Source: Candidatus Kuenenia stuttgartensis (GTDB taxonomy: Bacteria > Planctomycetota > Planctomycetia > Planctomycetales > Planctomycetaceae). From it: a stretch of 38,344 nucleotides of DNA. The notes below the pieces were generated by a model that did no database searches, was not told where the DNA came from, and saw nothing but the letters and a program-made list of their open reading frames with translations. Within the stretch, counting starts at the first letter, position 1, and every line of letters starts with the position of its first letter. The translations under genes were made by a program, and so were the position numbers. The stretch lies in assembly GCA_945904015.1 (NCBI GenBank), contig CAMDPK010000064.1, forward strand, positions 1-38,344. The letters are read 5' to 3'. Shown piece by piece: positions 139-37,371 of this stretch.

Positions 139-3100
139 TTGTCTACGAATGAGCCAACCGATATCGGTCGTGCAACGCCTGATATCGTGGCCGACCCGCC
201 GCGGCGGGCCAGCGTCGGCTCGCGGACGCAAGCTGCGTCCACCACGGCGATCGCCGCTGGGCCGTCTTGGCTCGAACGCATTCGCCAACTCGTCGAAAGG
301 TATCTCACCTGGATCGTCGGTGTCTGGCTGTTCGGAGTGGCGATCTTGTCGCTGCGATTGCTAGCAGGTTGGCTCAGCGTGCAAAGATTACGACGCCGCG
401 CTCATCAACCCGCCAATGAAACTTGGCAAGCGATGCTCCGCCGCATCGCGGAACGATTGCGAGTCACTCGGCCGGTGAAACTGGTCGAGTCAGCTCTGGT
501 CGAAGTCCCAACGGTCATCGGCTGGCTGAGTCCGATGATTCTGCTCCCCGCCAGCGCGATGACCGGACTGACGACCGAGCAACTCGAAGCGCTGCTCGCA
601 CACGAACTCGCGCATGTGCGGCGGCACGATTACCTCATCAATCTGCTTCAAACGGTGGTCGAGACGCTGCTGTTCTATCACCCCGCCGTCTGGTGGGTCT
701 CGCACCGCATCCGTCTCGAACGAGAACACTGCTGTGACGACCTCGCGGTGCATGTCTGCGGCGACGGTCTGACGTATGCGAAAGCGCTCGTCGCGTTGGA
801 GGAGTTGCGTGCTCCGAAACTCGGCTTGGCGATGTCATCACGCGGCGGAAGTTTGCTGACGCGAGTCGCTCGCCTGCTCGGTCAAGCCGAGCAACAACGT
901 CGGCCGACCGGCTGGATCGCGGGCCTCTTGTCGTTGGTGTTGCTCACGATGGCCGGAGCGCTCGGCGCGGGTCTCCTGACCCCGCCGGACAAACCGACCG
1001 CAGGTCTTCCGAACAACACGCAACCAACAGAAACAAAATCAACCGACACGAACGAGGAGACCTCCGGTCCAACCCAGCGACAGGGTCAGGACACCCGTGC
1101 CGAGCGTGAATTGTTCGTGACTGTTGCCGAAGGCCAAACGCTCGACCTCGAATTCGAGCAATCCGTCAAGACGGTCGAAGGTTTCGATTTGAGGATGCTG
1201 ACGGTCACAACGCCCTCGCCAACGACGGCGCGAGTGAAAGGTGTGATCGTCGGATTGACGATCGTAACAGTGACGGACGTCAATGGGACCGAGTTCACTG
1301 TTCCGATTGAGGTACTGCCGAAGTCTAATTCTGAATTGAACAAGCCAGCCACAACCACATTCCGCCCCAAGCCAAGAAAGAACCCACTGCTGCGTCCTAT
1401 CCAGATTGGCCAAAACAAAATGTCGGTCGTACTTGGCGTTCAGCAGCCTCGCTTCGTGGAATTTCCAAATCGGATTTTTCGCATCGACGGTTTTGATCCA
1501 TTGGTGATCAATGTCGGTGCGATGTCCCCTTACCAATTGCGAGTGACGGGGCTGGCCATTGGGAAAACGTCATTCACTGCCGGGATCGAGGGTGACAAGC
1601 CGCTCACGGTTGAGTTTGAGGTGACACCATTCAAGCACAGCCGGGAGTCAATCATAAAACTCTTTGCGGCAACGGATGGCGATTTGCCAGGAGGAGAACT
1701 GCGGATCAGCGAAGTGGCGGGGGCGGGAGACCCGCGCCGAGCGCAAGTCGATGATCAGAAAGCCGTCCAGCGCGAAGAACTCATTCCCATTCACGGTCAA
1801 TGCGTTGGTGCAAAGACTGATCAGCCGATCGAGGATGCCGAAGTGCGGCTCTATCGGTTGGACCGAACTCTTCGGAAGAATTCGTTGATCATTGCGACGC
1901 GAACCGATGCGACCGGTCGGTTTGATTTGGGTACGTTTCCAGAACTCGGCGAGGGGCAAAATTATTTTGTCGGTGTGCGAGCGAAAGGTTTCGCGTCCTC
2001 GTTGAGCGCGACGCGCCACAATCGTAGGTCTCTGGAGCGATCTGCGCCACTGATGCTCCGCTTGTCGCCGGCAGCGACATTGAGTGGCACTGTCCTGGGG
2101 CCGGACGATCAACCGCTGGCGGACGTGAAGGTGAATCTCGGCGTGGATTGGATTCCCGGAATCCGCAGCACGACGACTGATGCCAAGGGGCAGTTTGCTC
2201 TCGACGATGTCACCGAAATCGTGGAGGGATCAAGTCGAGGGCGTATAGTTTTGGAGCACGCCGAACTGGGCCGCAAGGATGTTTGGTATTCGCGCTGTCC
2301 TGACACGCTGGACGTGAAGTTTGTCGCTCCCGCAATTGTTGAAGGAACGGTCCTAAACGCGGATGGATCGACCGCTCGAAATGAAACGCTGCATTGCCAG
2401 TCCACTCATGCGGAGCGTGCGATCGTCCCTGGTCCCGCCGAGCACAGCGTGACGACGGACGACCAAGGTCGATATCGCTTCGCGTTTCAAGTGGCGGGAA
2501 AGATCAACCTATTGCACATGGCCCGAAATCCAGATTTCGTGGCTGAGGCGATCGAATCAATTGAGGTCATTAACGGTCAAACGGTGACGGCTCCTCCAAT
2601 GACGTTGGTAAATGGAGGCCTCATCGTTGGGCAAGTCATCGACGCCGATACGGGTAAGCCGGTCGTCATCCGGCCGTTCGAGAGTTTTCATGTGGGCGCG
2701 CATGGACCAAGCCGTCCGAACAGCAGTCCTATGGTGGTCGTCGCTTATGTGAAACCTGACGGAACGTACTCTTTACGAGTTCCTCCGGGCCGTAGCTACC
2801 CGTATTTGGGCCGCAGCAGTAACTCCACAGCCAACGGCCCTAATTGGTCGATCACCGTTGGAGCCTACGATCCGTTGAAGGCTCTCGAACAACCGATCGA
2901 TGTGCTGGAAGGCCAAACGATCGAACTCAATTTTGAAGTCAGCCTTACTCGACGTAAAAACGTGCCCGCGATTTCAAAGCTTCAGTCCATCGAGCGCAGC
3001 TCTCCTGATGCACCACTCAATAAATCGGATGCTCGTGATGGACGTGGGACTACAAACGTCGGCCGGTTTGTCGGGCGAGTGCGGCTGAAGACGGAGAAGG

Positions 3101-5460
3101 CGTTGCCGGATTTGGAGAAGGTGGCGGTGCCGGCCGGAAAAGTGTTGGATGAGTCGTTGGTGTTCTCGAAGGACGGCGGCTTAGCGAATGTGTTCGTCTA
3201 TTTGCGGAAGCCGACGTTTCCGATTGAGCCGCCGTCGGAGGCGAAACTCGCGAAGCCGTTCGTATTGATCGCGGAGGACGGAAAGTTCTGGCCCCATGCG
3301 GCGATGGTCCGAGTTGGGCAGCCGATCGTTCTCGAAAACCGAGACATTGAAGGAGTCAATTTTCATCTGCAACTATCGAGGAATGGCTCGCAAAACATTG
3401 CGGTGGTTGGTGGCGAGAGATTCAGAAGCAAGCCACTCAGTAAATCCGAGAGTTATCCGCTGCCAGTGACGTCCGACTTGCAGCGGTGGAAAAAGGCGCA
3501 CCTTTTTGCTGTCGATCACCCATTCGTCGCCGTGACGGATCATGACGGCCACTTCGTCATCAACTGTCTGCCTCCCGGCGAACACGAATTCCTTGCCTGG
3601 CACGAGCGGGTCGGCTACTTGGCGAAGTCACTCGTCATCACGATCAAGCCGAGCGAAGACGTGCAGTCCGAATTGGAATACGCGCCGGATCGTCTCAAGC
3701 TCACCGAGGCCGAAGTGCTGGCTTGGGGCAATCGACTGATTGATGCCAAGTGGATTCCGAGAGCGATCGTGCCTCGGCCTGCGGCCCCGAAGAAAGAGGA
3801 CGAGGGCAAGGCTGACTTGTCAGAGACTCCTGACACGAAGCAACCGCCACAAAAACAACTGAAGGTCGAAACGGAAGCAGAGCAAGCTCGGCGAGCGATC
3901 ATCCGCCAGCGGGCGGAGAATGACGTCACTGTTCGATTTGCGAAGAAGAGTGCCGAAGTCGCCAAAGCAGAATGGGAAAAACTCTTGGCCGCCAATCGCA
4001 GCGTACCGGGAGCGATCTCGGAGTCCGAGGTTCGCCGAGCGAAAGCAAAGTACGAGATCGCTCTGTTGCAAATCGAGCACGCTGAAGCGGAGCGAGCAGC
4101 AGCTCGCTCGCAGCTTGAGGACAAAACGCTCGACGAGCCGTCCCCGAAAACGGTCGAACTTCGCCAGCGAGCGGCGAAGACCGCCGCCGAAATCGCCAAG
4201 GCCAATGCCGAAATCGTGAAGGCTGCCATCGAACGCGCCGTCGCCTTTTTGAAAACTCAGCAGCAAGAAAATGGTGCGTGGCAAGGGATGCCGGCTGATG
4301 GAGTGACCGCTCTTTGTGCCGCCGCGTTGTTGCAAGCGGGTGTGAAGGCCGATGATCCCGTCATGCAGCGGGCGTTGGCTCAACTGCGGAAGATCGAACA
4401 GTCGCTGAGTTACACGGTTGCGTTGCAGACGATGGTCTTCTGCTGGGCTTCGCCGAAGGAAGATGCGGAATTGATTCTGCGAAATGTCGAGTGGCTGGAG
4501 AAAGCTCAAGTGACGAAAGGTGAGCTGCGCGGGGCGTGGAGCTACGCGGTCACGAACCTCGGCGTTGGCGATGGTTCGTGTTCGCGGTTCGCGGTGATGG
4601 GCCTGCACGCGGCGAAGCGAGCGGGCTTCGCGGTGAAGGCCGAGACTTGGCGGCACGTCAGCGATTATTGGCTGACGACTCAAAAGGATCAGGGTCGCTG
4701 GGGCTACACGCCGCAATCGGCACCGACACCCACGATGACTCTGGCGGGGATCGCGTGCCTCGCGACTGCGAATCGGTACTTGCCGCAGGATGAGCAAACG
4801 AAGACTCGCGAAGCCGCGATGCGCAAACCGGCCGAGTATCTGGAAAAGGTGATCCCCGATTTGACGAAGGCGGGATTCGCGCTTTACGCCCTGCAATCGC
4901 TCGAACGAGCCGGCCACATCAGCGGCATCAAGGAGTTTGGCAAGCTCGATTGGCAAGCCGATCTGACGAAACGGCTGTTGGAAACGCAGCATCCCAACGG
5001 AAGTTGGAAAGGGAGCACGCCGACCGAAAGCGAACTCGTCGCCACCTGCTTCGCGTTGCTCGCGCTGACGGGACAGCCGGAGACGAAGCTGGTCGCCCAC
5101 CGGGTGCGGATCGAGCCTCGCGACGCAGGGGGAAAAATGCAAATTCGTACCAACTTGATCGTGACATCCACACCACCTCGGCAGCGCACCGAGATCAGTG
5201 GCGGCGTACGAATCGAAGCGATCGAGCCGGATGGATCGAAGTGGCGCATCGAAGCCGATCAGGCAATCATCGAATCTGGTACTGGAGTCAATGACAAATT
5301 CGAGTTGTCTGGTAGTGACGTGACGCGCATCGTATGCACTGGCTCGGTGAAGATGGTGGGGGGGCAAGGCGATCAATTGACGGAAGTGACGGCAGAGAAT
5401 CTGGAATTGGATTTCCAAAAGAACGAAGGTTGGCTTAACCAATCCCAAATACGGCCGTGA
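139..5460 (+). CDS. M56 (BlaR1-type) peptidase multidomain protein, 5'-truncated
   Basis: A 1773-residue reading frame whose first possible start is the TTG at 139, after a stop at 118-120. Visible parts: membrane segment about 55-77; M56 zinc peptidase with HELAH at 155-159 and the downstream EREHCCDD at 194-201; second membrane segment 258-280; two pilus-formation N-terminal-like beta domains (about 325-395 and 428-500); four carboxypeptidase-regulatory/CnaB-like repeats (about 549-935); a cupredoxin-like stretch (about 998-1175); an alanine/glutamate-rich coiled coil (1244-1370); squalene-cyclase/prenyltransferase-like helical repeats (1360-1655); and a C-terminal OstA/LptA-like beta domain. 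BlaR1-type proteins normally carry two or three more N-terminal helices, and often a BlaI repressor gene lies upstream. Both are absent, and an IS110 end abuts the start, so I infer truncation by insertion. Three copies of a 29-bp repeat lie inside the frame. Function beyond a membrane metallopeptidase sensor is unknown. Confidence 0.8.
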   Translation: MSTNEPTDIGRATPDIVADPPRRASVGSRTQAASTTAIAAGPSWLERIRQLVERYLTWIVGVWLFGVAILSLRLLAGWLSVQRLRRRAHQPANETWQAMLRRIAERLRVTRPVKLVESALVEVPTVIGWLSPMILLPASAMTGLTTEQLEALLAHELAHVRRHDYLINLLQTVVETLLFYHPAVWWVSHRIRLEREHCCDDLAVHVCGDGLTYAKALVALEELRAPKLGLAMSSRGGSLLTRVARLLGQAEQQRRPTGWIAGLLSLVLLTMAGALGAGLLTPPDKPTAGLPNNTQPTETKSTDTNEETSGPTQRQGQDTRAERELFVTVAEGQTLDLEFEQSVKTVEGFDLRMLTVTTPSPTTARVKGVIVGLTIVTVTDVNGTEFTVPIEVLPKSNSELNKPATTTFRPKPRKNPLLRPIQIGQNKMSVVLGVQQPRFVEFPNRIFRIDGFDPLVINVGAMSPYQLRVTGLAIGKTSFTAGIEGDKPLTVEFEVTPFKHSRESIIKLFAATDGDLPGGELRISEVAGAGDPRRAQVDDQKAVQREELIPIHGQCVGAKTDQPIEDAEVRLYRLDRTLRKNSLIIATRTDATGRFDLGTFPELGEGQNYFVGVRAKGFASSLSATRHNRRSLERSAPLMLRLSPAATLSGTVLGPDDQPLADVKVNLGVDWIPGIRSTTTDAKGQFALDDVTEIVEGSSRGRIVLEHAELGRKDVWYSRCPDTLDVKFVAPAIVEGTVLNADGSTARNETLHCQSTHAERAIVPGPAEHSVTTDDQGRYRFAFQVAGKINLLHMARNPDFVAEAIESIEVINGQTVTAPPMTLVNGGLIVGQVIDADTGKPVVIRPFESFHVGAHGPSRPNSSPMVVVAYVKPDGTYSLRVPPGRSYPYLGRSSNSTANGPNWSITVGAYDPLKALEQPIDVLEGQTIELNFEVSLTRRKNVPAISKLQSIERSSPDAPLNKSDARDGRGTTNVGRFVGRVRLKTEKALPDLEKVAVPAGKVLDESLVFSKDGGLANVFVYLRKPTFPIEPPSEAKLAKPFVLIAEDGKFWPHAAMVRVGQPIVLENRDIEGVNFHLQLSRNGSQNIAVVGGERFRSKPLSKSESYPLPVTSDLQRWKKAHLFAVDHPFVAVTDHDGHFVINCLPPGEHEFLAWHERVGYLAKSLVITIKPSEDVQSELEYAPDRLKLTEAEVLAWGNRLIDAKWIPRAIVPRPAAPKKEDEGKADLSETPDTKQPPQKQLKVETEAEQARRAIIRQRAENDVTVRFAKKSAEVAKAEWEKLLAANRSVPGAISESEVRRAKAKYEIALLQIEHAEAERAAARSQLEDKTLDEPSPKTVELRQRAAKTAAEIAKANAEIVKAAIERAVAFLKTQQQENGAWQGMPADGVTALCAAALLQAGVKADDPVMQRALAQLRKIEQSLSYTVALQTMVFCWASPKEDAELILRNVEWLEKAQVTKGELRGAWSYAVTNLGVGDGSCSRFAVMGLHAAKRAGFAVKAETWRHVSDYWLTTQKDQGRWGYTPQSAPTPTMTLAGIACLATANRYLPQDEQTKTREAAMRKPAEYLEKVIPDLTKAGFALYALQSLERAGHISGIKEFGKLDWQADLTKRLLETQHPNGSWKGSTPTESELVATCFALLALTGQPETKLVAHRVRIEPRDAGGKMQIRTNLIVTSTPPRQRTEISGGVRIEAIEPDGSKWRIEADQAIIESGTGVNDKFELSGSDVTRIVCTGSVKMVGGQGDQLTEVTAENLELDFQKNEGWLNQSQIRP
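958..986 (+). repeat. 29-bp coding-embedded repeat, copy 1
   Basis: The repeat begins GCGCTCGGCGCGGGTCTCC and ends in GACCCCGCC. Here it is translated as ALGAGLLTP at the end of the second membrane segment of the M56 protein. Related copies lie at 1081-1107, 1716-1744, 32221-32249 and 36974-37002. Confidence 0.8.
1081..1107 (-). repeat. 29-bp coding-embedded repeat, copy 2 (diverged, inverted)
   Basis: The reverse complement matches copy 1 with about two substitutions over the core. It is translated as QGQDTRAER in the linker after the second membrane segment of the M56 protein. Confidence 0.6.
1716..1744 (-). repeat. 29-bp coding-embedded repeat, copy 3 (inverted)
   Basis: The reverse complement reads GCGCTCGGCGCGGGTCTCCC followed by GCCCCCGCC. 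It is translated as AGAGDPRRA between the second pilus-like domain and the first carboxypeptidase-regulatory domain of the M56 protein. Confidence 0.75.
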
Positions 5461-5535
5461 GGCGGCTTTGGTGGCGATGTCCTGCAAAATGCGAGACAGT
5501 GTTTGGGTGACTCACTCGTTTCGTCGGATGTGCCA

Positions 5536-5660
5536 GGGTCAGGTCTTCAAATTTCATTTTTGGGCACCGCAATCCGCCCCAGACTCTAATTCCAACTTGC
5601 CATTCCAATCGACATCGAGCTTATTCGTGAGGCCAAAAATGAAATTTGAAGACCTGACCC
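5536..5660. repeat. MITE/REP-like element with perfect 28-bp inverted repeats
   Basis: The left arm 5536-5563 and right arm 5633-5660 are exact reverse complements, separated by 69 bases. The arm contains GACCTGACCC next to AAATTTGAAG. From memory this sequence type recurs in genomes carrying REP-associated tyrosine transposases, but that link is inference. The right arm contains the ATG (5639) used by the sulfatase and encodes its first seven residues, so the element defines the 5' end of that gene. Confidence 0.85.
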
Positions 5661-7357
5661 CTGCGCTTCTCGTTGCTTGGACGTTGCTGTTGCTGGAAGT
5701 CGCCGAGACGAGCGGCAACGACAAGCCAACTCGGCCAAACATCGTCGTGATCATGTCGGATGACATGGGGTATTCGGATCTCGGCTGCTACGGCGGCGAG
5801 ATCAAGACGCCGAATCTCGACAAGCTGGCGGCGGGTGGGTTGCGGTTCACGCAGTTCTACAACACCGCGCGGTGTTGCCCGACGCGAGCGGCGTTGCTCA
5901 CGGGGTTGTATCCGCATCAGGCGGGTATCGGGCACATGATGGAGGACCGTGGGCACAACGGTTATCGCGGAGACCTCAATCGGCAGTGTGCGACGTTCGC
6001 CGAGGTGCTCAAGCCGGCGGGGTACGGGACGTATGCGGTCGGCAAATGGCACGTCACGAAGCACATCCAGCCGGACGGGCCGAAGCACAACTGGCCGTTG
6101 CAGCGCGGGTTCGATCGCTTCTACGGGACGATCACCGGAGCCGGCAGTTTTTACGATCCGGGAACGCTGACTCGCGACAACACGAACCTCTCGCCGTTCG
6201 CGGATGCCGAGTATCAGCCGAAGCGGTTCTACTACACCGACGCGATCACCGATCATGCGATTCGCTTTGTCGGCGAGCATTGCGACAAGCAGGCCGAGAA
6301 ACCTTTCTTGCTCTACATGGCTTACACGGCGGCGCATTGGCCGATGCACGCGCTGGAAGAGGACATCGCCAAATATCGCGGCGTGTACGACGCTGGGTAT
6401 GACGCGATCCGGAAGGCTCGGTTGAAACGGCTGCACGAGTTGGGACTGATGCCGACTGGGTGGACTCCGGCACCGACGGTCGGCGATTGGTCGAAGCTGG
6501 CCGACAACGAGCAACGCCGCGCCTGGGAGATTCGCTGCATGGAGGTCTATGCCGCGATGATCGACCGCATGGATCAGAACATCGGACGCTTCGTCGCGGA
6601 ACTGTCTCAGCGCGGGAAGCTCGACAACACGCTGATCCTGTTCCTGCAAGACAACGGCGGCTGCCAAGAGGTCATCGGCCGACAAGAGCAGATGACTCGC
6701 TCAGCGAAGCCAACGCTGCCGCCGATCGCGGCTGATGCGATTCGGCTCGATGTCATCCCGAAGCAGAACCGCGCGGGAGTGCCGACTCAGCAAGGCCCGC
6801 ACGTTCTGCCCGGTCCAGAAGACACCTACATCGCCTACGGACTGAATTGGGCGAATGTCTCGAACACGCCATTTCGCGAGTACAAGCACTTCGTCCACGA
6901 AGGGGGCATCTCGACGCCGCTGATCGCTCATTGGCCGAGCGGAATTTCTCGCCGCAGTGCGTTCGAGCCTCAGCCGGGACACCTGATCGACATCATGGCA
7001 ACGTGCGTCGATTTGTCCGGCGCGGCGTACCCGCCGGTACTGCGGTCTGAGCCGATTCATCCGCTTGAAGGCCGCAGCCTCGCTCCGGCGTTCACGGGAA
7101 AGAAGATCGAACGAGACGCGATCTATTGGGAGCATGAAGGGAACCGCGCGATCCGCGAAGGCTCGTGGAAGCTCGTCGCGAAGGAAGACAAACCGTGGGA
7201 GCTGTACGACCTAGCCGCCGATCGCACCGAACAGCACGACCTCGCCACCTCGCAGCCAGAGCGATTACAACGACTCGCCGCCAAGTGGGACGACTGGGCC
7301 AAACGCGCGAATGTTTTGCCGCTCGGCACTTGGAAAGCAAAAGCAGCGCTGAAGTAG
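5639..7357 (+). CDS. Type I sulfatase (arylsulfatase-like), exported
   Basis: 572 residues from the ATG at 5639. This is an alkaline-phosphatase-superfamily sulfatase that hydrolyses sulfate esters, in planctomycetes typically of sulfated polysaccharides. The metal-binding N-terminal DDMG appears in IVVIMSDDMGYSDLGCYGG, and the modification motif CCPTR has C79 as the predicted formylglycine residue. GKWH and a late DNGG motif are also present, and the C-terminal region reads IREGSWKLV and WELYDL as in this family. A hydrophobic stretch (about residues 9-23) suggests a signal peptide, but its n-region is unusual because MKFEDLT is encoded by the arm of the inverted repeat at 5536-5660. The native start was probably replaced. 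The frame stays open upstream to a TTG at 5468, but that part runs through the repeat and is not convincing coding sequence. No anaerobic sulfatase-maturating enzyme is in the window. Confidence 0.93.
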   Translation: MKFEDLTPALLVAWTLLLLEVAETSGNDKPTRPNIVVIMSDDMGYSDLGCYGGEIKTPNLDKLAAGGLRFTQFYNTARCCPTRAALLTGLYPHQAGIGHMMEDRGHNGYRGDLNRQCATFAEVLKPAGYGTYAVGKWHVTKHIQPDGPKHNWPLQRGFDRFYGTITGAGSFYDPGTLTRDNTNLSPFADAEYQPKRFYYTDAITDHAIRFVGEHCDKQAEKPFLLYMAYTAAHWPMHALEEDIAKYRGVYDAGYDAIRKARLKRLHELGLMPTGWTPAPTVGDWSKLADNEQRRAWEIRCMEVYAAMIDRMDQNIGRFVAELSQRGKLDNTLILFLQDNGGCQEVIGRQEQMTRSAKPTLPPIAADAIRLDVIPKQNRAGVPTQQGPHVLPGPEDTYIAYGLNWANVSNTPFREYKHFVHEGGISTPLIAHWPSGISRRSAFEPQPGHLIDIMATCVDLSGAAYPPVLRSEPIHPLEGRSLAPAFTGKKIERDAIYWEHEGNRAIREGSWKLVAKEDKPWELYDLAADRTEQHDLATSQPERLQRLAAKWDDWAKRANVLPLGTWKAKAALK

Positions 7358-7383
7358 GTGATGTCGGCGTAGCTGACGACTAT

Positions 7384-7493
7384 GTAGCCATCACGCTCCG
7401 CGTGATGAGCCGAGCGCTTCACAACCCCCCAACCCGTGAAAACGTCCATCGCTGTGAAGCCTGCGGCTCGTCACGCGGAGCGGTGACGGCTAC
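7384..7493. repeat. Inverted-repeat element between sulfatase and clpB
   Basis: The left arm (about 7384-7424, starting GTAGCCATCACGCTCCGCG) and right arm (about 7451-7493) are imperfect reverse complements of about 42 bases around a short loop. It begins 27 bases after the sulfatase stop and could act as a terminator hairpin, although no U-tract follows. The remaining 170 bases to clpB hold no gene that I can support. Confidence 0.75.
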
Positions 7494-7666: not shown

Positions 7667-10297
<2,631 letters not shown>

Positions 10298-11697: not shown

Positions 11698-11720
11698 GAT
11701 GGAAGTGGATTCAAAACTCG

Positions 11721-27586: not shown

Positions 27587-27595
27587 CGCGGCGAT

Positions 27596-28949: not shown

Positions 28950-30550
28950 TTCGCTTCTTGGAATCTCGTCGCCTGTTTGCTCGAGCCGCAGTTTGCGGAA
29001 CGCTGATTGGATCGTTTGGCCTTTCCGGCTGCGCGGCGTTTCGGCCGATCGACGGCATTCCCGCGCGGTACGTTCCCGACGAAGTCAAAGCTCCGGTGCG
29101 GTCTGGCAAAAAGACGATCAATTTATCGTTGCTCGAACAGACGCAGCCGAGCGTGTATCACCTCGACACGGGTGACGTGTTGGCGATCTCGATCGAAGGG
29201 GTCATGCCGCGCCGAGAGGGAGAACTTCCGCCGGTGAACATGGCCTTCAATCCCAACGACCAAGCCTTGCCGGCGTTGGGCTATCCCGTTCCGGTGCGAG
29301 CGGACGGCACGATTTCGTTGCCGATGCTGCACCAAGCGATCGCGGTGCGCGGCATGACGGTCAAGCAAGCCGAAGACGCCGTGCGTCGAGCCTATACCGT
29401 CGACAAAAAGATTCTGCAATTAGGCAACGAACGAGTGTGGGTCATCCTGCATCGGCCGCGTCAGTACCGAGTGCTCGTCATTCGCCAAGAGGGGGTCGAA
29501 GCACAGGCCGGCTCCGGGCAGGCGGGCGGCGTCAACCTCGGCACACTGAAGCGAGGCACCGGCAGAGCGGTCACGCTCACGGCCTACAAGAACGACGTGC
29601 TGCACGCGCTGACCGAGACTGGCGGACTGCCGGGACTCGATGCCGAGAACACGATCTACGTCATTCGCAGCAAGCGTGGCAGCGCCGTGGCTGATGGATT
29701 GGCAACCGGATCGCCAACGAACTCCGGTTCCGGTTGGAGTGTTGCTCCCTCGCAGCTTGGCATTCCGCCGCTGCCGGACGGCGGGCATTCCTACGGCGTG
29801 CCCAACGGAGTCGCTCCCGCATTGCCGATCGTTCCCGGCGTGAATACTCCGGCATTGCCCCCGCCGCCTGCGCAAGAGCTGCCGTTACCTGATTCCAAAG
29901 AGACGACGCCGGAATCCCAGACACACTTCTCGCCGATGTCCTCGAACTCCGGCTTGCAAGTGGCCATGCTCGGCTTTGAATCGGGCGAGTCTCTGAAGCG
30001 TGTCGCTCCGATCTCGTTCAACGCCAACGCGGCGGGTCAGCCGAGCTACACGCTGCCAATGACGAACCAGCCGCAGATGGCATCGCCGCCGATGGATTGG
30101 CAAGGCGGAATGCCGCCGATGCAGTCGTCCGGCAACTGGTCGGAAGTCTCCGCAGAAAATTGGATGGGCCACGCCTCGCTCGGCGATCCGACGTTGGCCA
30201 ATCAAAGCGTCACGAAGATTCCGGTGCGGCTCGCGCCCGGTGAGCAAACGCGGTTCACCGAACGCGACATCATTCTCGAAGACGGCGACATCGTGTTCAT
30301 CGAATCGCGCGACACCGAGATTTTTTACACGGGCGGATTGCTCGGCGGCGGCCAGTACACGCTACCTCAAAACTACGACCTCGACGTGCTGGGAGCCATC
30401 GCGATCGCTCAAGCCGGCCGCGCCAACGGGCGGGGCCACACGAGCCACCGGCGGCATCACAGCGATCAACAACGATGTCACAATCAGCGCCAGCCAGGCG
30501 ATCATCCTTCGCAAGATGCCCAACGGCACACAAGTGCCGATCAGGGTTGA
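28946..30550 (+). CDS. Polysaccharide export lipoprotein (Wza-like), frameshifted near its end
   Basis: 534 residues as read, from GTG at 28946 with AAGGAG seven bases upstream. Lipobox LSGC (C29). The Poly_export domain begins at VYHLDTGDVLAISIEG and continues through VRADGTISLPMLHQAIAVRGMTVKQAE; SLBB-like material follows (YRVLVIRQEG, LTAYKNDVLHALTETGGLPG), then a long Pro/Ser/Met-rich insertion, then the closing IILEDGDIVFIESRDTEIFYTGGLLGGGQY. Such proteins form the outer-membrane channel for capsule or exopolysaccharide. After AIAIAQAGRANG the frame turns into unrelated His/Gln-rich sequence and stops at 30550, while the expected C-terminus continues in the next frame (30432-30719). One extra base, perhaps in the GGGG run at 30432-30435, explains this. 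It may be a real mutation or a sequencing error. Confidence 0.88.
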   Translation: MIRFLESRRLFARAAVCGTLIGSFGLSGCAAFRPIDGIPARYVPDEVKAPVRSGKKTINLSLLEQTQPSVYHLDTGDVLAISIEGVMPRREGELPPVNMAFNPNDQALPALGYPVPVRADGTISLPMLHQAIAVRGMTVKQAEDAVRRAYTVDKKILQLGNERVWVILHRPRQYRVLVIRQEGVEAQAGSGQAGGVNLGTLKRGTGRAVTLTAYKNDVLHALTETGGLPGLDAENTIYVIRSKRGSAVADGLATGSPTNSGSGWSVAPSQLGIPPLPDGGHSYGVPNGVAPALPIVPGVNTPALPPPPAQELPLPDSKETTPESQTHFSPMSSNSGLQVAMLGFESGESLKRVAPISFNANAAGQPSYTLPMTNQPQMASPPMDWQGGMPPMQSSGNWSEVSAENWMGHASLGDPTLANQSVTKIPVRLAPGEQTRFTERDIILEDGDIVFIESRDTEIFYTGGLLGGGQYTLPQNYDLDVLGAIAIAQAGRANGRGHTSHRRHHSDQQRCHNQRQPGDHPSQDAQRHTSADQG

Positions 30551-30719
30551 TCTGTACCGAGCCTTGCGGCATCCGGACGAGCGAGTGCTGATTCAACCTG
30601 GCGATTACCTGCTGCTGCAATACACCAAGCTGGAAGCCTGCGGAGCGTTCTTTGAACGCCACCTGCTGGAAGGTGCGCTCTTCGGAGTCGCCGCAGCGCA
30701 GGTCAACAGCAACCGCTGA
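30432..30719 (+). pseudogene. Out-of-frame C-terminal part of the polysaccharide export gene
   Basis: In the +1 frame relative to the preceding CDS, this reads GATRATGGITAINNDVTISA, followed by IILRKMPNGTQVPIRVDLYR and DERVLIQPGDYLLLQYTK. The last part is the normal ending of planctomycete polysaccharide export proteins (the VRK-PNG and ILIQPGD pattern). Removing one base near 30432-30435 joins it to the upstream frame, giving about 590 residues. There is no own start or ribosome-binding site. Confidence 0.8.
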
Positions 30720-30757
30720 TGCAGCCTCGCCGCACGAATTCACTCGAAGCGTCAGAT

Positions 30758-30990
30758 TTGAAGTTGCGCTTTTGCCTCTGAACCCGGAGGGTTCTCAGCG
30801 ATTAGCCAGTGGTCGCCGAAGGCGCACCACCGGAAAACTCGCATCCCGGAGGGATGCCAGCCAATCTGTTGCTGGCATCCCTCCGGGATGCGGGACCACC
30901 AAAAACTTGTTTCCGGTGGTATCGCTTCGCTCAACCACCGGCTAATCGCTTTGAACCCTCCGGGTTGAATCGCCGAAGCACAACTTCAAA
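30758..30990. repeat. Structured inverted-repeat element (CCC-GGA-GGG / TAGCC type)
   Basis: The arms of roughly 105-120 bases (30758-30860 and 30871-30990) are imperfect reverse complements. From the outside in, each holds an AACCC-GGA-GGGTT hairpin, GCGATTAGCC, a GGTGGT/ACCACC stem with a variable loop, and a GCATCCC-GGA-GGGATGC hairpin. Its layout is shared with 10344-10561 and 12783-13106. The gap 30720-31089 holds no gene. Confidence 0.8.
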
Positions 30991-31035
30991 GGGCGTCAAC
31001 CAGAGCGATCGATCCCCAGCCGCTTGGAACCCTCG

Positions 31036-31065
31036 CCCTCGCCCTCGCTGACGCTTCGGGTTAGT
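31036..31065 (+). repeat. Solo arm of the AACCCGAAGCG repeat family
   Basis: The right-arm sequence CCCTCGCTGACGCTTCGGGT is present with CCCTCG repeated in tandem before it, but no left arm lies within 100 bases upstream. It directly follows the TAGCC-type element. Confidence 0.75.
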
Positions 31066-31089
31066 GTGTTGACCACGGAGCAACCCCGA

Positions 31090-33978
31090 ATGAGCCACGG
31101 ATCAAAGCGTCCTCGCAGACAACTGCGAACAATCTGCCTGTGCGCCAGCTTGGTCATCAGCGCGGCGGCCTTATCGGCTGACGATGCCGAGCCGGTTTCA
31201 CGGCACTGGGCCTTTCAGGCATTGCAGCGATCGACCATTCCGGCTGTGAAGGATGCGTCGCGCGTTCGCTCGCCCATCGACCACTTCGTGCTGGCGAAAC
31301 TTGAAGAGCGAGGGTTGTCGCTCGGACGTGCGGCGGACAAGCCGACACTGATTCGCCGAGTCGCGGTCGATCTGACGGGACTGCCGCCGACGCCCGGTGA
31401 TGTCGCGGACTTCGTCGCGGATGATTCGCCCGACGGTTACGAACGTATGGTCGAACGATATCTCGCCTCGCCGCATTACGGCGAGCGGTGGGGCAAGTGG
31501 TGGCTGGATGTCGCCGGCTACGCCGACTCGAACGGCTACTTCAATGCCGACTCGGATCGGCCGCTGGCGTACCGTTATCGCGACTACGTGATTCGTGCGA
31601 TGAACGCCGACAAGCCGTTCGACCAGTTCATCCGCGAACAAATCGCCGGCGACGAACTCAGCGGCTTCGATCCCAAACAGCACGAGCGACACGCGACGCC
31701 GGAGATGATCGACCTGCTCGAAGCGACGCACTTTCTTCGCAACAGTCCCGACGGTTCGGGGGAAAGCGACGGTAATCCCGAAGAGGTCATGATCGACCGC
31801 TACTTCGCGCTCGAGGGTGCTCAACAGATTCTCGGTTCGTCGCTGCTGGGGCTGACGATTCAGTGCTCGAAGTGCCACGACCACAAGTTCGAGCCGATCA
31901 CGCAGCGCGAGTTCTACCAACTGCAAGCGTACCTGCATCCCATCTTCAACATGCAGAAATGGCTCAAGCCAAACGAGCGTTTCACGCATGCCGCGCTCCC
32001 CGGCGAGGTCGAGGCGTGGGAGACTCAGCAGCGCGAAGCAGAAACTCACGTCGCCGTGCTGCGAACTGAGTTCACCCGATGGCTGCGCGAGCATCGTCCG
32101 GTCGCCGGTGTCTTGTTCTCCAACGACTTCGACGGCGCGGAAGAGACCTTCCTCGCGAATTGGTCAAACACCGCTCCGGGCGATGATGCTCCGGGCGGAA
32201 CTGGAGTCGTGACGCTCACAGCGCTCGGCGCGGGTCTCCCGACCCCGCCGAAGATCGAATCCCCCGCGGCCGTTCGGGCAAACGGCACGCTGCGGATCAT
32301 CGAAGGGGGGCCGTCCGGCGACAAATGGATCTCGACGAAACGAGCCTTCGATTGGACGCCGGACAAACCAGGCGAATGGATTCAGGCAACCTTCGATTTG
32401 CTCGACAACAAAGTCAGCGCCGACGACAAGCCGGCCGAGCGGATCGCGTTCTTTCTCGCGCTGCACGACTTCAACGACAACGGTGCGACCGCTGGCGGCA
32501 ACATTTTGATCGACGGCAATCCGGCGGGCGGTGCGGCCGTGCATCTCGATTATCCCGGAACCGATCAGTCGCATCGCGGCGTGATTGGGAAAAGCGGTTA
32601 CGCTCCGGGACGCAACTTCGGCGTGCGCGTCACGAATCTCGACGGCCAGAAATTCAAACTCGAACAACTCGTTGATTGGCTGCCGGAAGAACGGACTCTC
32701 GAATTGGTTGCCGCGAACTTGCCGGACGGCGGCTTCGGCTTCGAGTTCTGTTGCAACCGCAGCTTCATCGTGGACAACGTCACCGTCGAGTCCTCGACGG
32801 GCAGCACGCAAGACGAGGCGGCTCAAGTCGCGTTGAAAACATTTCGCACCGAATACGAATCGCGACGCAAAGCGCTGGCCGATGCGGTTGCCGAAGTACA
32901 GAAGCGTCAGACCGCGCGCCCCGGCAAGATCGCCTGGGCGAGCGACGTCGCCGCCGAACCCCCCAACGTGCCGATCTTGTTGCGAGGCAACGTGACGACT
33001 CCGGGAGAAATCGTGCAGCCCGCTCCGCTGCGAGCGATTGCTTCGACGTCCGCACCTCCCGCCCGAAGTCGCACCGCTCTGGCCGACTGGCTGACGCGAA
33101 GTGATTCACCCGCCTCGGCGCTGATGGCTCGCGTGCAGGTGAACCGACTGTGGGAACGCCATTTCGGTCGCGGCTTGGTGGCGACGCTCGACAATCTGGG
33201 AGTCAGCGGCGCAGCTCCGTCGCATTCTGAACTTCTCGAATGGCTGGCGGCTGAACTCGCCCGGCCGGATGCCGACGGCCGACAGCCGACAGCCGTTATG
33301 CCGTTTTTTTCATGGTCACTTAAACGCCTGCATCGCGAAATCCTGCACTCGGCAACCTACCGGCAATCGAGCCAATTCAACGAAGCTGCGTTCGCGATCG
33401 ATCCCGACAATCGACTGCTCTGGCGGCAGCCGGTGCGACGATTGGATGCGGAAGCGATTCGAGACGGGATGCTGTTTGTCAGCGGCTCGCTCGACCGACG
33501 TTTCGGTGGGCCGTACATCCCGACACAACGCAGCAGCGCGGCCGAGGTCGTTGTCAACGATTCGCATCCCGAAGCCCATCGGCGTTCGGTCTACTTGCAA
33601 CAGCGACGCACGCAGACGCTCAGCCTGCTGAATCTCTTCGATGCTCCGGCCGTGACGTTCAACTGCGTGCAGCGACCGACGACCACGATGCCGCTGCAAT
33701 CGCTCAGCCAGTTGAACTCCGAGTTCGCGCTGACTCGCGCGGCCGACTTTGCTCGTCGATTGGATCGCGAAGCTCCGCCCGATCCGCGTCACCGCGCGCG
33801 ACTGGCGTTTGAACTGGCGACCGGGCATGTGTCTTCGGACGTCGAGCTGCGCGCGTCGCTGTCATTTCTCGAAGAGCAAACCCGCGCGTACGAACCGGCC
33901 GCCGACGCTTCGCCGCGAGCCTGGACCGACTTTTGCCAAATGCTGTTGTCGTCGAACGGGTTTTTGTACGTGGAATGA
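31090..33978 (+). CDS. DUF1549/DUF1553 secreted protein with CxxCH
   Basis: 962 residues from the ATG at 31090 (ACGGAG about ten bases upstream). The signal peptide is LRTICLCASLVISAAALSAD-like. The PSCyt2/DUF1549 domain begins PIDHFVLAKLEERGLSL, with LIRRVAVDLTGLPPTP, HYGERWGKWWLDVAGYADSN, and the haem-c-like CSKCHDHKFEPI (C259, C262, H263). A beta-sandwich-like insertion (about 335-580) precedes the C-terminal PSD1/DUF1553 domain (LADWLTRSDSPASALMARVQ, VNRLWERHFGRGLV, SWSLKRLHREILHSATYRQS, RRSVYLQQRR). Function is unknown; it is a hallmark planctomycete family, usually followed by DUF1501, which is absent here. Two repeats lie in frame: the 29-bp repeat (residues 378-387) and a repeat arm (about 728-741). 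The extension to 31024 is repeat read-through. Confidence 0.93.
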   Translation: MSHGSKRPRRQLRTICLCASLVISAAALSADDAEPVSRHWAFQALQRSTIPAVKDASRVRSPIDHFVLAKLEERGLSLGRAADKPTLIRRVAVDLTGLPPTPGDVADFVADDSPDGYERMVERYLASPHYGERWGKWWLDVAGYADSNGYFNADSDRPLAYRYRDYVIRAMNADKPFDQFIREQIAGDELSGFDPKQHERHATPEMIDLLEATHFLRNSPDGSGESDGNPEEVMIDRYFALEGAQQILGSSLLGLTIQCSKCHDHKFEPITQREFYQLQAYLHPIFNMQKWLKPNERFTHAALPGEVEAWETQQREAETHVAVLRTEFTRWLREHRPVAGVLFSNDFDGAEETFLANWSNTAPGDDAPGGTGVVTLTALGAGLPTPPKIESPAAVRANGTLRIIEGGPSGDKWISTKRAFDWTPDKPGEWIQATFDLLDNKVSADDKPAERIAFFLALHDFNDNGATAGGNILIDGNPAGGAAVHLDYPGTDQSHRGVIGKSGYAPGRNFGVRVTNLDGQKFKLEQLVDWLPEERTLELVAANLPDGGFGFEFCCNRSFIVDNVTVESSTGSTQDEAAQVALKTFRTEYESRRKALADAVAEVQKRQTARPGKIAWASDVAAEPPNVPILLRGNVTTPGEIVQPAPLRAIASTSAPPARSRTALADWLTRSDSPASALMARVQVNRLWERHFGRGLVATLDNLGVSGAAPSHSELLEWLAAELARPDADGRQPTAVMPFFSWSLKRLHREILHSATYRQSSQFNEAAFAIDPDNRLLWRQPVRRLDAEAIRDGMLFVSGSLDRRFGGPYIPTQRSSAAEVVVNDSHPEAHRRSVYLQQRRTQTLSLLNLFDAPAVTFNCVQRPTTTMPLQSLSQLNSEFALTRAADFARRLDREAPPDPRHRARLAFELATGHVSSDVELRASLSFLEEQTRAYEPAADASPRAWTDFCQMLLSSNGFLYVE
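32221..32249 (+). repeat. 29-bp coding-embedded repeat, copy 4
   Basis: Same sequence as copy 1 except CTCCCGACC for CTCCTGACC. It is translated in the same phase as copy 1, as ALGAGLPTP, in the beta-sandwich-like insertion of the DUF1549/DUF1553 protein. Confidence 0.85.
33271..33310 (+). repeat. Repeat arm in frame inside the DUF1553 coding sequence
   Basis: GCCGACAGCCGTTATGCCGT followed by a run of T matches the right arm of the intergenic repeat at 25272-25297 with one difference. It encodes ADGRQPTAVMPFFS, between the conserved LAAELARP and SWSLKRLHREI blocks that are normally separated by only a few residues in this family. Confidence 0.75.
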
Positions 33979-33984
33979 CGGAAC

Positions 33985-34054
33985 CGTAGACCGGACGCCT
34001 ACGTCCGGTTGGCCCTCGCTCGGCGTTTGACCGGACGTAGGCGTCCGGTCTACG
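33985..34054. repeat. Inverted repeat after the DUF1553 gene
   Basis: The arms 33985-34009 and 34030-34054 are perfect 25-bp reverse complements (CGTAGACCGGACGCCTACGT and on). Each arm is itself near-palindromic (ACCGGACG...CGTCCGGT). Confidence 0.9.
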
Positions 34055-34107
34055 TCACGGCGCGCTGTCAATTCCTCGATGGCAGCCTTTGGCCGCAACC
34101 AAAACGC

Positions 34108-34189
34108 CAGTGCAGACTGCAAAGTGAAAAGTGCCAAATCGGCCGCTTCCATTTTGCAGTTTGCAGTCTTCACTCGTCACTTTGCACTG
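34108..34189. repeat. Imperfect GTGCAAAGTG-type inverted repeat
   Basis: CAGTGCAGACTGCAAAGTGA (from 34108) is partly complementary to 34154-34189, which contains TTGCAGTTTGCAGTC and CACTTTGCACTG. It is a degenerate, slippage-prone sequence. Together with the preceding element it makes up most of the gap 33979-34300, which has no gene. Confidence 0.6.
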
Positions 34190-34300
34190 CTCTATTCAAA
34201 CACGCGAGCAAGAAGCACACATCTTTCGGACAAAAACTCTAAGACGCCGTCGCCTCCCACGTCTCTCCCTCTGAACGCCTCGCTGGCAGGGTAAATCGCG

Positions 34301-34810
34301 ATGGACCAGTCCGTGACGGACAGCCCAAGTGAGTGGATTTTGGACGTGGTTGCTCGATGGGAGAGCGATCTCGTGCGGTATGCGCGGCACATGGTTGGGG
34401 ACGTCGAACGGGCACGGGACGTCGTTCAAGACACGTTCTTGAAACTCTGCCAGCAGGATCGCGGGCAGCTCGACGGGCATCTGGTCGAGTGGTTGTTCAC
34501 GGTCTGCCGCAACGGGGCGCTCGATGTGCGACGAAAGGAACAACGCATGACGACCATGACGCTCGACGCAGTGATGGAATCGGCGGGCTTCGATCCGCAA
34601 CCGGATGACGCGGCAGAACAACGCGACGAATCCCATCGCGTGCTGCAGCTGATGACCGGGCTACCCGCCAACCAGCAGGAAGTCCTGCGGCTGAAGTTTC
34701 AGCACAGCCTGAGCTATCGCGAGATCAGCGCGATCACCGGGCTGTCAGAAACGAACGTGGGATTCCTGATTCATGTCGGGATCAAACGACTTCGCGAATT
34801 AACGAAATGA
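34301..34810 (+). CDS. ECF-type RNA polymerase sigma-70 family factor
   Basis: 169 residues. Region 2 is DLVRYARHMVGDVERARDVV followed by QDTFLKLCQQ; an inter-region linker follows, then region 4 with LPANQQEVLRLKFQHSLSYR and the helix-turn-helix EISAITGLSETNVGFLIHVG. There is no signal or extra C-terminal domain. The next gene on the same strand encodes an N-terminal anti-sigma-like segment fused to a membrane vWA protein, so the pair probably forms a sigma/anti-sigma unit. No promoter consensus could be assigned. A GTTGGTTATTGGT-type inverted repeat occupies the gap to its partner. The target regulon is unknown. Confidence 0.93.
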   Translation: MDQSVTDSPSEWILDVVARWESDLVRYARHMVGDVERARDVVQDTFLKLCQQDRGQLDGHLVEWLFTVCRNGALDVRRKEQRMTTMTLDAVMESAGFDPQPDDAAEQRDESHRVLQLMTGLPANQQEVLRLKFQHSLSYREISAITGLSETNVGFLIHVGIKRLRELTK

Positions 34811-34909
34811 ATTGGTCGTCGGTTATTGGTCGTTGGTCAGTTGTCATTTTTCGGCAAATGCAGCGTTCCAAATAGCCAATGACCAACGACCAATAACCAA
34901 CGATCAATT
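34810..34909. repeat. Inverted repeat between sigma factor and vWA genes
   Basis: The arms 34810-34839 (AATTGGTCGTCGGTTATTGG and on) and 34880-34909 are 30-bp reverse complements with about three mismatches. The left arm starts on the last base of the sigma-factor stop codon. It would form a hairpin inside a sigma/anti-sigma transcript. Confidence 0.85.
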
Positions 34910-34941
34910 TTCTTCTGCCCTCCGCTCAAAAGGAGCCTGTC

Positions 34942-37371
34942 ATGTCCACCAATCACGACGATCCGCGTCTGACCGCGTATGCCTTGAACGAACTCAGTCC
35001 CGCTGTCCGAGCGGCGGTTGATCGCCAATTGGCCGACTCGCCCGAAGCCGCCGCCGAGGTCACTTCGATCCGCGAGATGGCCGACGAATTGCGAGCCGCG
35101 CTGCAATCGGAGCCGGCTCTGCCGCGGACGGACTTCGTGGTGCCGACGCGAATCGCACCATCGAAAGTCGGCGCGGCCGGCGTCGGTGCGTCTCCCGATT
35201 CGTTCTCGCCGCGACATCGTTGGTCGAGCCGAGTCGCTGTCGCGGCGTCCTGCGTCGCACTGCTCGGCACCTTCAGTTGGGTCACTTGGAGTGGTCGAAG
35301 CGATCATCGCCAGGCGGCTGAGCAGCAACTGGCTTTGAACCGGCATCCTTCGATGTTTTCCTTCGGTGTGGGTGTGCCTGAAATCGCGGAGGCCGCCGAT
35401 GGAGTTTTGGCGGACGTGGAACTGTTGGCAAACCAACCACAAGTCCGCGTGGTTCCCTTGTACGCCTACAGCGAGGCGGAAGCCAAGCGGTCGCTCGGAG
35501 TCCAATTCCTGCCGCTTTTGACGAAGAACCACGTTGCGGAACAGAGCGGGAAGGACTCCAGAGATCGGTTCGGCCGTTCCAAGGGGAGAGCGAATGAACC
35601 CAATGTTGAGTTCTACGATCGCGATTCGTTGGAAGCGAAAACCGGCGAAGGCTTGTCCCGCTCTGACCACTTTCGGTTCGTGAAACCGCAACTCAAGGCG
35701 CTTGATGACCGAGTTGCAGAGATCGACAAATTAGGCGAACCGGAACTCAGACAGAAGCTGGTGAAGCCGTCGTTTCATCTCCCTGAAAGACTGCACGAAG
35801 AAGCCAACGCTGAAGCCTACGCCGCGATTCACGACAACCCGTTCGCCACGCCACTGCAAGAGCCGCTCTCGACGTTCTCGATCGACGTGGACACGGCAGC
35901 GTACTCGAACATGCGGCGGTTTCTGACGCAGGGAAGTTTGCCGCCAGCCGACTCGGTGCGGATCGAAGAATTGGTCAACTATTTCAACTACGACTACATG
36001 CCGCCAAATCAACTTGAGCGTCAGGTTGCTGGCGGCCGAAACGTGCCGGAGCCGGCTGATTGGCCATTCGCCGTCCACATGGAAGTTGCCGGGTGCCCGT
36101 GGAACGCCGAGCATCGTCTGGTCCGCGTCGGTCTCAAGGGCAAAGAGATCGCGCTCGACAAGCGGCCGGTCAGCAACATCGTGTTTTTGATCGACGTATC
36201 CGGCTCGATGCAGGATCCGAACAAGTTGCCGCTGGTGAAGGCCGGGCTGCGGCGGCTGGTTGAGCAGTTCACGGAGAACGACCGTGTCGGCATTGTGGTC
36301 TACGCCGGAGCATCCGGGCTGGTGTTGGATTCGACCAACGCCTCGCAGAAGGACGTCATCTTGTCGTCGATCGAGAACCTGCAAGCGGGCGGTTCGACCA
36401 ACGGCGGCGAGGGGATTCAGCTCGCGTATGCGTTGGCTCGCAAGCACTTCATCGAGAAGGGGACGAATCGCGTGATCCTCTGCACCGACGGCGACTTCAA
36501 CGTCGGCATCACCAATCAAGATGATCTCACGCGGTTGATCGAGGAGGAATCGAAGTCGGGGGTGTTCCTCAGTGTGCTGGGCTTTGGCATGGGGAACTTG
36601 AAGGACTCGACACTGGAGAAACTCGCCGACAAAGGGAACGGCAACTACGCCTACATCGACACGCTCCGCGAAGCCAACAAGGTGTTCGTCGAACAGATGA
36701 CCGGCACGCTGATCACGATCGCGAAGGACGTGAAAATCCAGATCGAGTTCAATCCGGCACTGGTCGGTGCGTACCGACTGATCGGCTACGAGAATCGGTT
36801 GCTGGCCGCTCAGGACTTCCACGACGACACGAAAGACGCTGGCGAAATCGGAGCCGGTCACACGGTCACCGCGCTGTACGAGATCATCCCGCCCAGCAAG
36901 CTGCCGGCTCCGCCGAAAGCGACCAGCGGAGAGAAACTGAAGTATCAGCCGAACGTGAAGTCGCCGGCCGACGGCGCTCGGCGCGGGTCTCCTGATCCCG
37001 CCGCTTCACCAGACCGAAGGTCCCCCGCGACCGCTACCCCCGACGAGCAACAGGCGAGCCGCCCGTTGCCAAAGAACGGCGAACTGCTGACGATCAAGTT
37101 GCGCTACAAACAACCCGATGAGGACAAGAGTTCGTTGATCGAGATGCCGTTGACCGACGACGGCCGTGCGTTCGCGAAAGCCTCGACCGACTTCCGCTTC
37201 GCGGCGAGCGTCGCCAGCTTCGGCATGATCCTGCGTCACTCGCCGCATCGTGGCAACGCGACGCTCGACGCCGTGGCGGAGATTGCTCAATCATCGTTGG
37301 GCGTGGACAAGTCGGGCTATCGCTCGGAGTTTGTCGGCCTCGTCCGCTCGGCAAAGGCGTTGCAGAAGTAG
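34942..37371 (+). CDS. Anti-sigma-like/vWA (YfbK-type) membrane fusion protein
   Basis: 809 residues, ATG with AAGGAG seven bases upstream. Residues 1-60 (DPRLTAYALNELSPAVRAAV and following) look like the N-terminal part of an anti-sigma factor, but without the usual HxxxCxxC zinc ligands. A membrane segment follows (about 97-117), then a linker, the YfbK N-terminal domain (FSIDVDTAAYSNMRRFLTQG), a vWA domain with MIDAS motif DVSGS (D418, S420, S422), and the C-terminal DUF3520 domain (LTIKLRYKQP and RFAASVASFGMILRHS). I infer that the periplasmic vWA part senses or scaffolds something and the cytosolic N-terminus holds the sigma factor encoded upstream. The fifth copy of the 29-bp repeat lies in a low-complexity linker (residues about 678-687). 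Confidence 0.9.
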   Translation: MSTNHDDPRLTAYALNELSPAVRAAVDRQLADSPEAAAEVTSIREMADELRAALQSEPALPRTDFVVPTRIAPSKVGAAGVGASPDSFSPRHRWSSRVAVAASCVALLGTFSWVTWSGRSDHRQAAEQQLALNRHPSMFSFGVGVPEIAEAADGVLADVELLANQPQVRVVPLYAYSEAEAKRSLGVQFLPLLTKNHVAEQSGKDSRDRFGRSKGRANEPNVEFYDRDSLEAKTGEGLSRSDHFRFVKPQLKALDDRVAEIDKLGEPELRQKLVKPSFHLPERLHEEANAEAYAAIHDNPFATPLQEPLSTFSIDVDTAAYSNMRRFLTQGSLPPADSVRIEELVNYFNYDYMPPNQLERQVAGGRNVPEPADWPFAVHMEVAGCPWNAEHRLVRVGLKGKEIALDKRPVSNIVFLIDVSGSMQDPNKLPLVKAGLRRLVEQFTENDRVGIVVYAGASGLVLDSTNASQKDVILSSIENLQAGGSTNGGEGIQLAYALARKHFIEKGTNRVILCTDGDFNVGITNQDDLTRLIEEESKSGVFLSVLGFGMGNLKDSTLEKLADKGNGNYAYIDTLREANKVFVEQMTGTLITIAKDVKIQIEFNPALVGAYRLIGYENRLLAAQDFHDDTKDAGEIGAGHTVTALYEIIPPSKLPAPPKATSGEKLKYQPNVKSPADGARRGSPDPAASPDRRSPATATPDEQQASRPLPKNGELLTIKLRYKQPDEDKSSLIEMPLTDDGRAFAKASTDFRFAASVASFGMILRHSPHRGNATLDAVAEIAQSSLGVDKSGYRSEFVGLVRSAKALQK
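36974..37002 (+). repeat. 29-bp coding-embedded repeat, copy 5
   Basis: Matches copy 1 with one substitution (CTGATCCCG for CTGACCCCG). It is read in a different phase from copies 1 and 4, as ARRGSPDPA, in a linker before the DUF3520 domain of the vWA protein. Confidence 0.85.

Follow-up and report, generated by a model that had tools for sequence, protein, structure and literature searches.

A short, GC-rich sequence that recurs within three unrelated genes of a 38,344-nt stretch of DNA from Candidatus Kuenenia stuttgartensis (contig CAMDPK010000064.1; the whole stretch is called the window below) probably belongs to a family of non-autonomous mobile palindromes that resemble REPINs (doublets of repetitive extragenic palindromes, or REPs), with a 52-nt arm containing two hairpins as its unit. 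A sequence-only reading of the window had described a 29-bp repeat at 958-986, 1081-1107, 1716-1744, 32221-32249 and 36974-37002, and both these coordinates and the accompanying translations were reproduced. However, 29 bp was too short for the unit: the arms at 958-1009, 1056-1107, 1693-1744 and 36974-37025 span 52 nt each, and what had been listed as two separate copies at 958-986 and 1081-1107 are the two arms of a single 150-bp palindrome (958-1107). A search of the window with a 27-mer returned four matches (≤3 mismatches) versus none in 100 dinucleotide shuffles, and a 21-mer core returned five versus none in shuffles. With a model of the arm, exactly five strong matches were obtained, the sixth best having an E-value of 0.1. 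The genome containing the window (7.43 Mb; G000) was compared with other members of its genus, making a set of 12 genomes (G000-G011), and with G012 from outside the genus; L numbers denote the DNA stretches compared.

The full palindromic element (958-1107) contributes 50 in-frame codons to the first host gene (187-5457, forward strand; open reading frame [ORF] 139-5460), which encodes an M56 (BlaR1-type) peptidase with CarboxypepD_reg and other domains. Its left arm (958-1009, forward strand; the former copy 1) reads ALGAGLLTPPDKPTAGL (67.8 bits, E 1.3e-14) and its right arm (1056-1107, reverse strand; the former copy 2) reads EETSGPTQRQGQDTRAER (65.9 bits, E 3.8e-14), the two being inverted around a 46-nt A/C-rich centre. 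As judged by eye, the element directly follows a hydrophobic stretch of the protein, and an M56 homologue in another genus member (G006:C535; L108) has a 150-bp element in the same frame after the same hydrophobic stretch. A solo arm with a degraded second hairpin (1693-1744, reverse strand; GELRISEVAGAGDPRRAQ; 59.9 bits) lies further along the M56 protein, between its pilus-N-like and CarboxypepD_reg domains. The truncated arm at 32221-32250 (forward strand; ALGAGLPTPP; 49.5 bits) retains only the first hairpin (∼30 bp) and is located between PSCyt2 and PSD1 of the DUF1549/DUF1553 protein encoded at 31150-33978 (forward strand; ORF 31024-33978). Finally, a solo 52-nt arm (36974-37025, forward strand; GARRGSPDPAASPDRRSP; 69.8 bits) interrupts the YfbK_C region of a vWA protein (34942-37371, forward strand). 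The earlier placement of all copies at linkers or domain edges needs correction for the vWA copy, which is inside the range of the YfbK_C Pfam model (matched in two stretches). Homologues of the M56 gene are themselves giant frames of 2065-2761 codons with 2-6 in-frame elements each (L106, the second long ORF of L107, L108, L110 and L111). The G007 homologue has an apparent in-frame TAG within its element (L109:2892-3041), and this copy looks broken.

Alignment of the flanks defined the 52-nt arm as a first hairpin, GCGCTcGGCGCGGGTCTCCnGACCCCGCCG, followed by a variable spacer of about 8 nt and then GACCGnnGGTCTCC. The first hairpin starts with GCGCT and has a 10-bp stem with one bulged base and a 4-nt loop, while the second, small hairpin is GACCGnAGGTCTCC. 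Two inverted arms with their outer ends outward form an almost perfect palindrome of 87-164 bp, mostly 110-160 bp (distinct pairs measured). Among neighbouring arms 15-150 nt apart in the own-genome and named stretches, 50 inverted pairs were -> <- and none were <- ->, with 18 further pairs arranged head to tail. Outside that set, one <- -> pair each was found in G009 and G010, in the FAD/Fer4 gene, with the outer ends fused together. The family displays the short imperfect hairpin in many copies and the inverted doublet as a unit that characterize REPs and REPINs, the terminal inverted repeats and lack of coding capacity of miniature inverted-repeat transposable elements, and, as a palindrome of ∼100-150 bp found in frame in unrelated genes, a feature of Rickettsia palindromic elements. 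Solo arms are probably remnants of full elements; in the own genome they are more degraded than paired arms (1.25 versus 0.78 mismatches). In several other assemblies (L293, L276, L278 and L305), the first hairpin was observed as head-to-tail copies ∼30-80 nt apart.

Alignment of arms from many assemblies showed that the first hairpin is maintained through compensatory changes. From 73 arms picked, with at most two per assembly where known, 72 were aligned and one was omitted. The first stem was paired in 98.9% of cells, and the covariation score was 0.126 as compared to a shuffled mean of 0.037 and a slid maximum of 0.043, although kinship among the sequences inflates such scores. The outer pairs switched together: one was C-G in 53 arms, G-C in 17 and of G-U type in two, another was G-C in 57, U-A in 14 and G-U in one, and an inner stem pair changed from G-C (68) to A-U (3). 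Among 218 arms chosen more loosely, the outer two letters paired as CG/CG 143 times, GT/AC 37 times and GG/CC 12 times. Selecting arms with ≤3 mismatches constrained the core letters but left the 3' partners of the outer pairs free, whereas the second hairpin was invariant by the selection requirement and so carries no covariation evidence. Because arms of different type combine in one element, the pairing that is conserved is the local hairpin of each arm.

The family is dispersed well beyond the window. When both strands of the own genome were searched, a 28-mer was found at 23 places (≤3 mismatches) and a reversed control pattern at none; the arm model returned at least 41 matches at E≤1 (150 of 4301 candidates scored) and 39 at E≤0.01. 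Arms were detected in all 12 genus genomes, at 9 to ∼100 per genome (lower bounds, with 99 candidates scored in each), and in 4 of 47 genomes outside the genus, which had 17, 2, 1 and 1 arms. A restriction to the genus, as suggested by this comparison, was rejected by the occurrence of an exact 26-nt core pattern in at least 114 stretches of GTDB representatives. The 80 matches listed had 29 accession prefixes, mostly labelled Planctomycetota or its groups and including a Kuenenia bin; among these matches, one accession was labelled Armatimonadota and two just "bacterium". These labels are those of the records, bins may be contaminated, and some of the stretches are the genus members themselves. 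In an even draw of 392 genomes of the phylum, at least five had matches, own genome included, using a second model and strict scoring with 15 candidates scored per genome, which makes this a lower bound. The element is widespread but patchy, and found mostly in Planctomycetota. Several cores, some in tandem ∼41 nt apart, were also seen on short contigs labelled viral in IMG/VR (L342, L343 and L346), which may be bacterial fragments.

Copies were assigned to genes or intergenic DNA using a simple codon-based gene finder, with the elements masked during scoring. The own-genome sample comprised stretches around most hits, and elements less than 150 bases from a stretch end or with more than three core mismatches were dropped. 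The sequence-only reading had seen no intergenic copy; this is correct within the window, but genome-wide 15 of the 25 own-genome elements examined were intergenic and 10 were inside predicted genes, with 81.9% of the other bases in these stretches coding. Similarly, 51 of 128 elements in the named stretches were inside genes, 72 were intergenic and five were at gene edges, against a background of 84.1% coding. In 16 hand-picked stretches of relatives, which are not a fair sample, the proportion inside genes was 33/40. Elements are therefore rarer in genes than random placement predicts, yet a large minority (∼40%) is coding. After removing doubles from the pooled coding figures (8 of the 40 relatives' elements were the same places as in the named stretches), the coding copies amounted to 87 distinct elements in 67 proteins, or 61 clusters at 60% identity.

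Elements in genes largely keep the frame. Among distinct paired elements, 30 of 39 coding ones had a length divisible by three as compared to 11 of 24 intergenic ones (Fisher p 0.016). The use of several phases, already proposed from the window, was borne out, with coding arms using five of the six possible readings. Of 126 distinct arms in genes, 62 were sense and 64 antisense. Sense arms were read in frame 0 (ALGAGL.TP) 19 times, in frame 2 (ARRGSPDPA) 43 times and in frame 1 never, while the antisense readings RRGQETRAER, GGVGRPAPS and AGSGDPRRA occurred 15, 6 and 43 times, respectively. Counted per protein cluster, the figures were 19, 0 and 33 for sense frames 0, 1 and 2, and 15, 6 and 29 for antisense. 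In sense frame 1, the first hairpin contains a stop only if its variable base is T, whereas 75 of 115 intergenic arms have C there. The missing reading therefore suggests selection against the peptide RSARVSRPR, although some spacers would also add a stop in this frame; assuming independent clusters and leaving the spacer out of account, the probability of observing none is ∼4e-7. On the antisense strand, 13 of 15 frame-0 coding arms had T at the variable base, which gives the Q of RRGQETRAER, versus 34 of 115 intergenic arms; shared descent is a possible cause.

The location of elements within proteins was examined by comparing 30 chosen element-bearing proteins with Pfam, 25 of which had a match above the cut-off. 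In 21 of these 25, every element was outside the best-matched domain stretches, with the proviso that weaker second stretches of the same Pfam family are not located by the tool. For example, elements were situated between MmeI_N and MmeI_hel (L262), Helicase_C and DbpA (L324), Response_reg and Hpt (L254), and FAD-oxidase_C and Fer4 (L091), and just before PSD1 (L121 and L281). The four exceptions, with elements in a domain or where the domain should continue, were L085 (DUF2079), L253 and L336 (both PSD1), and L263. Four of the 30 proteins had no Pfam match (L095, L234, L248 and L308) and L316 matched only below the cut-off. Judging from their composition, the host linkers are likely to be disordered.

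Orthologous proteins were read at four sites, a fifth (the YfbK linker) being too poorly aligned. In this check, which the sequence-only reading had proposed, the peptide was lacking in orthologues at several sites, and most orthologues are without it. At the first DUF1549/DUF1553 site, G000, G002, G007 and G010 carry the arm peptide, and the remaining eight genus genomes do not. The second DUF1553 site holds a whole element in G002, G006 and G007, with none in the other nine. The DUF2079 site is filled in G000, G002 and G006, has a decayed copy in G007, and is without the element in G001, G003, G004, G005 and G008-G011 as well as in G012. At the FAD/Fer4 site, arms were found in G000, G009 and G010 and an apparent remnant in G011; G001-G005, G007 and G008 lack the element, and the gene search gave no match for G006.

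Some linkers without the element hold other palindromes. These were first picked by eye, and two were then counted across the genus. At the DUF2079 site, G009 has a GTGGGGCAG...CTGCCCCAC palindrome and G001 an inverted pair. The FAD/Fer4 site has a 28-bp inverted repeat in G004 (G004:C43:12203-12269) and another in G001/G008. In DUF1553 proteins, G005 has CACAGGC...GCCTGTG and G004 a variant of it, and the second site of G010 has GAAACGTGGAGCACGTTTC. A near relative of the G009 DUF2079 palindrome, GTGGGGCAGGTTGAAAACCTGCCCCAC (L373:2716), had 262 own-genome matches (≤3 mismatches, both strands, overlapping counts possible) and was present in 12/12 genus genomes; the G004 28-bp inverted repeat had 23 own-genome matches and was present in 9/12. 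These two alternative palindromes are clearly dispersed repeats. More broadly, matches elsewhere in the examined DNA were obtained for the alternative families A, B, D, G and H and, as one weak match, for F, with none for shuffled controls; C and E matched only at the orthologous sites themselves. By predicted hairpin energy, 5 of 25 alternative linkers (four sites) ranked among the lowest 1% of windows from the same gene. In that comparison only two genomes were matched at the DUF2079 site, one of which, without an arm, is among the 25 and the 5; tested alone, this site had 1 of 9 within the lowest 1%, and the genome included before was no longer low. Most alternative linkers are thus not unusually structured, and the energies support some cases but no rule. 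A precedent comes from recB, where PMC3733652 describes different REPs at about the same site in two Xanthomonas species. While we lean slightly the other way, linkers and loops may be shared landing sites for several unrelated palindromic repeats in the genus, and perhaps the phylum, with linkers being created, replaced and recycled by hairpin DNA. If so, one orthologous linker may hold this element, another palindrome or none, depending on the species.

In the mechanism we propose, the first arm hairpin, which compensatory changes maintain across this dispersed family, would be recognized by an enzyme whose gene lies elsewhere, probably while the DNA is single-stranded during replication. 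Insertion would occur both in and between genes, and the copies surviving in genes are mainly in frame and in a linker or loop, where they would be harmless as a peptide rich in Pro, Gly, Ser, Arg and Asp. The pattern at the linkers is one of turnover, the element being present, trimmed, absent or replaced by other palindromes across relatives. The likeliest mobilizer would be a Y1/HUH transposase, an assignment that we make tentatively and with odds well below even. Y1_Tnp genes are present in 11/12 genus genomes and are presumably of the IS200-like and REP types, judging from their HUH and Y motifs. A REP-associated tyrosine transposase or IS200 partner adjoining the element was sought and not found in the stretches examined. 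The consensus of the 72 arms and its reverse complement, read by eye, contain no GTAG/GTRG or CGTC tag. The recurrent neighbours of arms, named by eye, are common planctomycete families such as kinases and DUF1549 proteins.

Several observations weigh against this mobility proposal. No convincing arm was detected within up to 1.5 kb on each side of 30 Y1_Tnp genes examined (best E 2.8), Y1_Tnp was found in only 2 of 189 element stretches, where the nearest arm was 1.6 and 3.9 kb away, and across 144 stretches no transposase recurred in the 2.5 kb around arms. Moreover, G011 has 14 arms and no Y1_Tnp match. Nine of the 39 distinct coding pairs have a length that is not divisible by three, and in the named set, which was picked by exact matches, solo arms show no greater degradation than paired arms (0.27 versus 0.50 mismatches). 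At the orthologous sites compared by eye, where the linker letters are too diverged, neither target-site duplication nor clean excision was identified, and filled and empty sites differ by replaced letters rather than by additions alone. Furthermore, carriers do not form a clade at any site in an unrooted tree of three proteins (support down to 0.154). The sites have therefore probably undergone gain, loss or recombination repeatedly, and because presence is inconsistent with clades, the shared sites could also reflect recombination.

This last point raises the alternative that shared sites acquired their copies through exchange between species and paralogues, by homologous recombination or gene conversion, and not through transposition. 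It would account for the second DUF1553 site being occupied at one and the same position in G006 and G002/G007, which are not sisters, as well as for linker letters being replaced and not just added. On the other hand, elements in 61 protein clusters and in intergenic DNA are out of reach of flank recombination, and we regard this explanation as unlikely, at roughly one chance in eight. An explanation that we also hold to be improbable, to a barely lesser degree, is that the arm is a structured RNA or mRNA element with a role in stability, attenuation or protein binding, spread by ordinary duplication and kept for that role. Stem covariation is equally expected for RNA, and intergenic copies outnumber coding ones; against this, both strands relative to the gene are used (62 sense versus 64 antisense arms), the elements in five scanned stretches had no Rfam match, and the copy number reaches from 9 to ∼100 within one genus.

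The remaining explanations fare considerably worse. The uneven readings, with sense frame 1 never used, would fit selection for the peptide itself as a functional linker or motif common to unrelated proteins. However, five different peptides are encoded on both strands, 15 of 25 own copies are outside genes, and it is the DNA stem that covaries, making this very improbable. Chance similarity of GC-rich codons, which the sequence-only reading had named as a possible refutation, might be considered for copies with a GC content of 0.69-0.75, but it can be dismissed given zero matches in shuffles and zero for the reversed control. We continue to favour a REPIN-like mobile palindrome.

Elements of this kind are already known in the form of REPINs, Rickettsia palindromic elements and intragenic REPs, and the comparisons that follow extend to the excerpted text of each paper cited. 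Like REPINs (Bertels and Rainey 2011, PMC3116915), the element is dispersed and non-autonomous and consists of inverted hairpin arms forming a short palindrome, with solo arms occurring too. Unlike them, it has no GTAG tag, two hairpins per arm and no Y1 transposase found adjoining, ∼40% of copies are inside predicted genes, and the same sequence recurs over many planctomycete lineages. Rickettsia palindromic elements (PMC10969869) are likewise palindromes of ∼150 bp in frame in unrelated genes, with nearly half in ORFs, but they belong to another phylum and have one conserved peptide instead of the five readings seen here. The parallel drawn in the sequence-only reading, that of a gene-entering palindrome tolerated as peptide, is supported by the genome search, the phases and the orthologues. 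The likeness is one of function, with common descent no more than a possibility, and genome-wide the present element is more often intergenic than coding. GTAG- and CGTC-tagged REPs also occur inside ORFs, many of them in Opitutus terrae, and REP families are reported in the planctomycete R. baltica (PMC3733652). In contrast to these, neither tag is in the consensus here, and within one genus there are several genes with sites common to several unrelated palindromes. Class 3 TnpA-Y1 genes occur mainly in Planctomycetes, Acidobacteria and Proteobacteria, and their associated repeats can be high-copy (PMC6006769); those are gene-flanking structures with a CnGA foot, an association not found for this element. 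In open-licence PubMed Central literature, searched by titles and the starts of abstracts, no description of this repeat was found, and the word stem "planctomyc" is absent from the excerpted text of the RepRanger paper (PMC12306157). As far as this literature shows, the two-hairpin arm, the recurrence over planctomycetes, the frequency in genes and the linker sites shared with other palindromes are new.

These results have a practical consequence for annotation: short peptides shared by planctomycete proteins, for example ARRGSPDPA and AGSGDPRRA, can be DNA repeats rather than homology. They also extend the tolerated-as-peptide behaviour of Rickettsia to a repeat found across many planctomycetes, with copies enough to test how hairpins enter proteins. 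With alternative palindromes at orthologous sites, how protein linkers originate can be tested directly.
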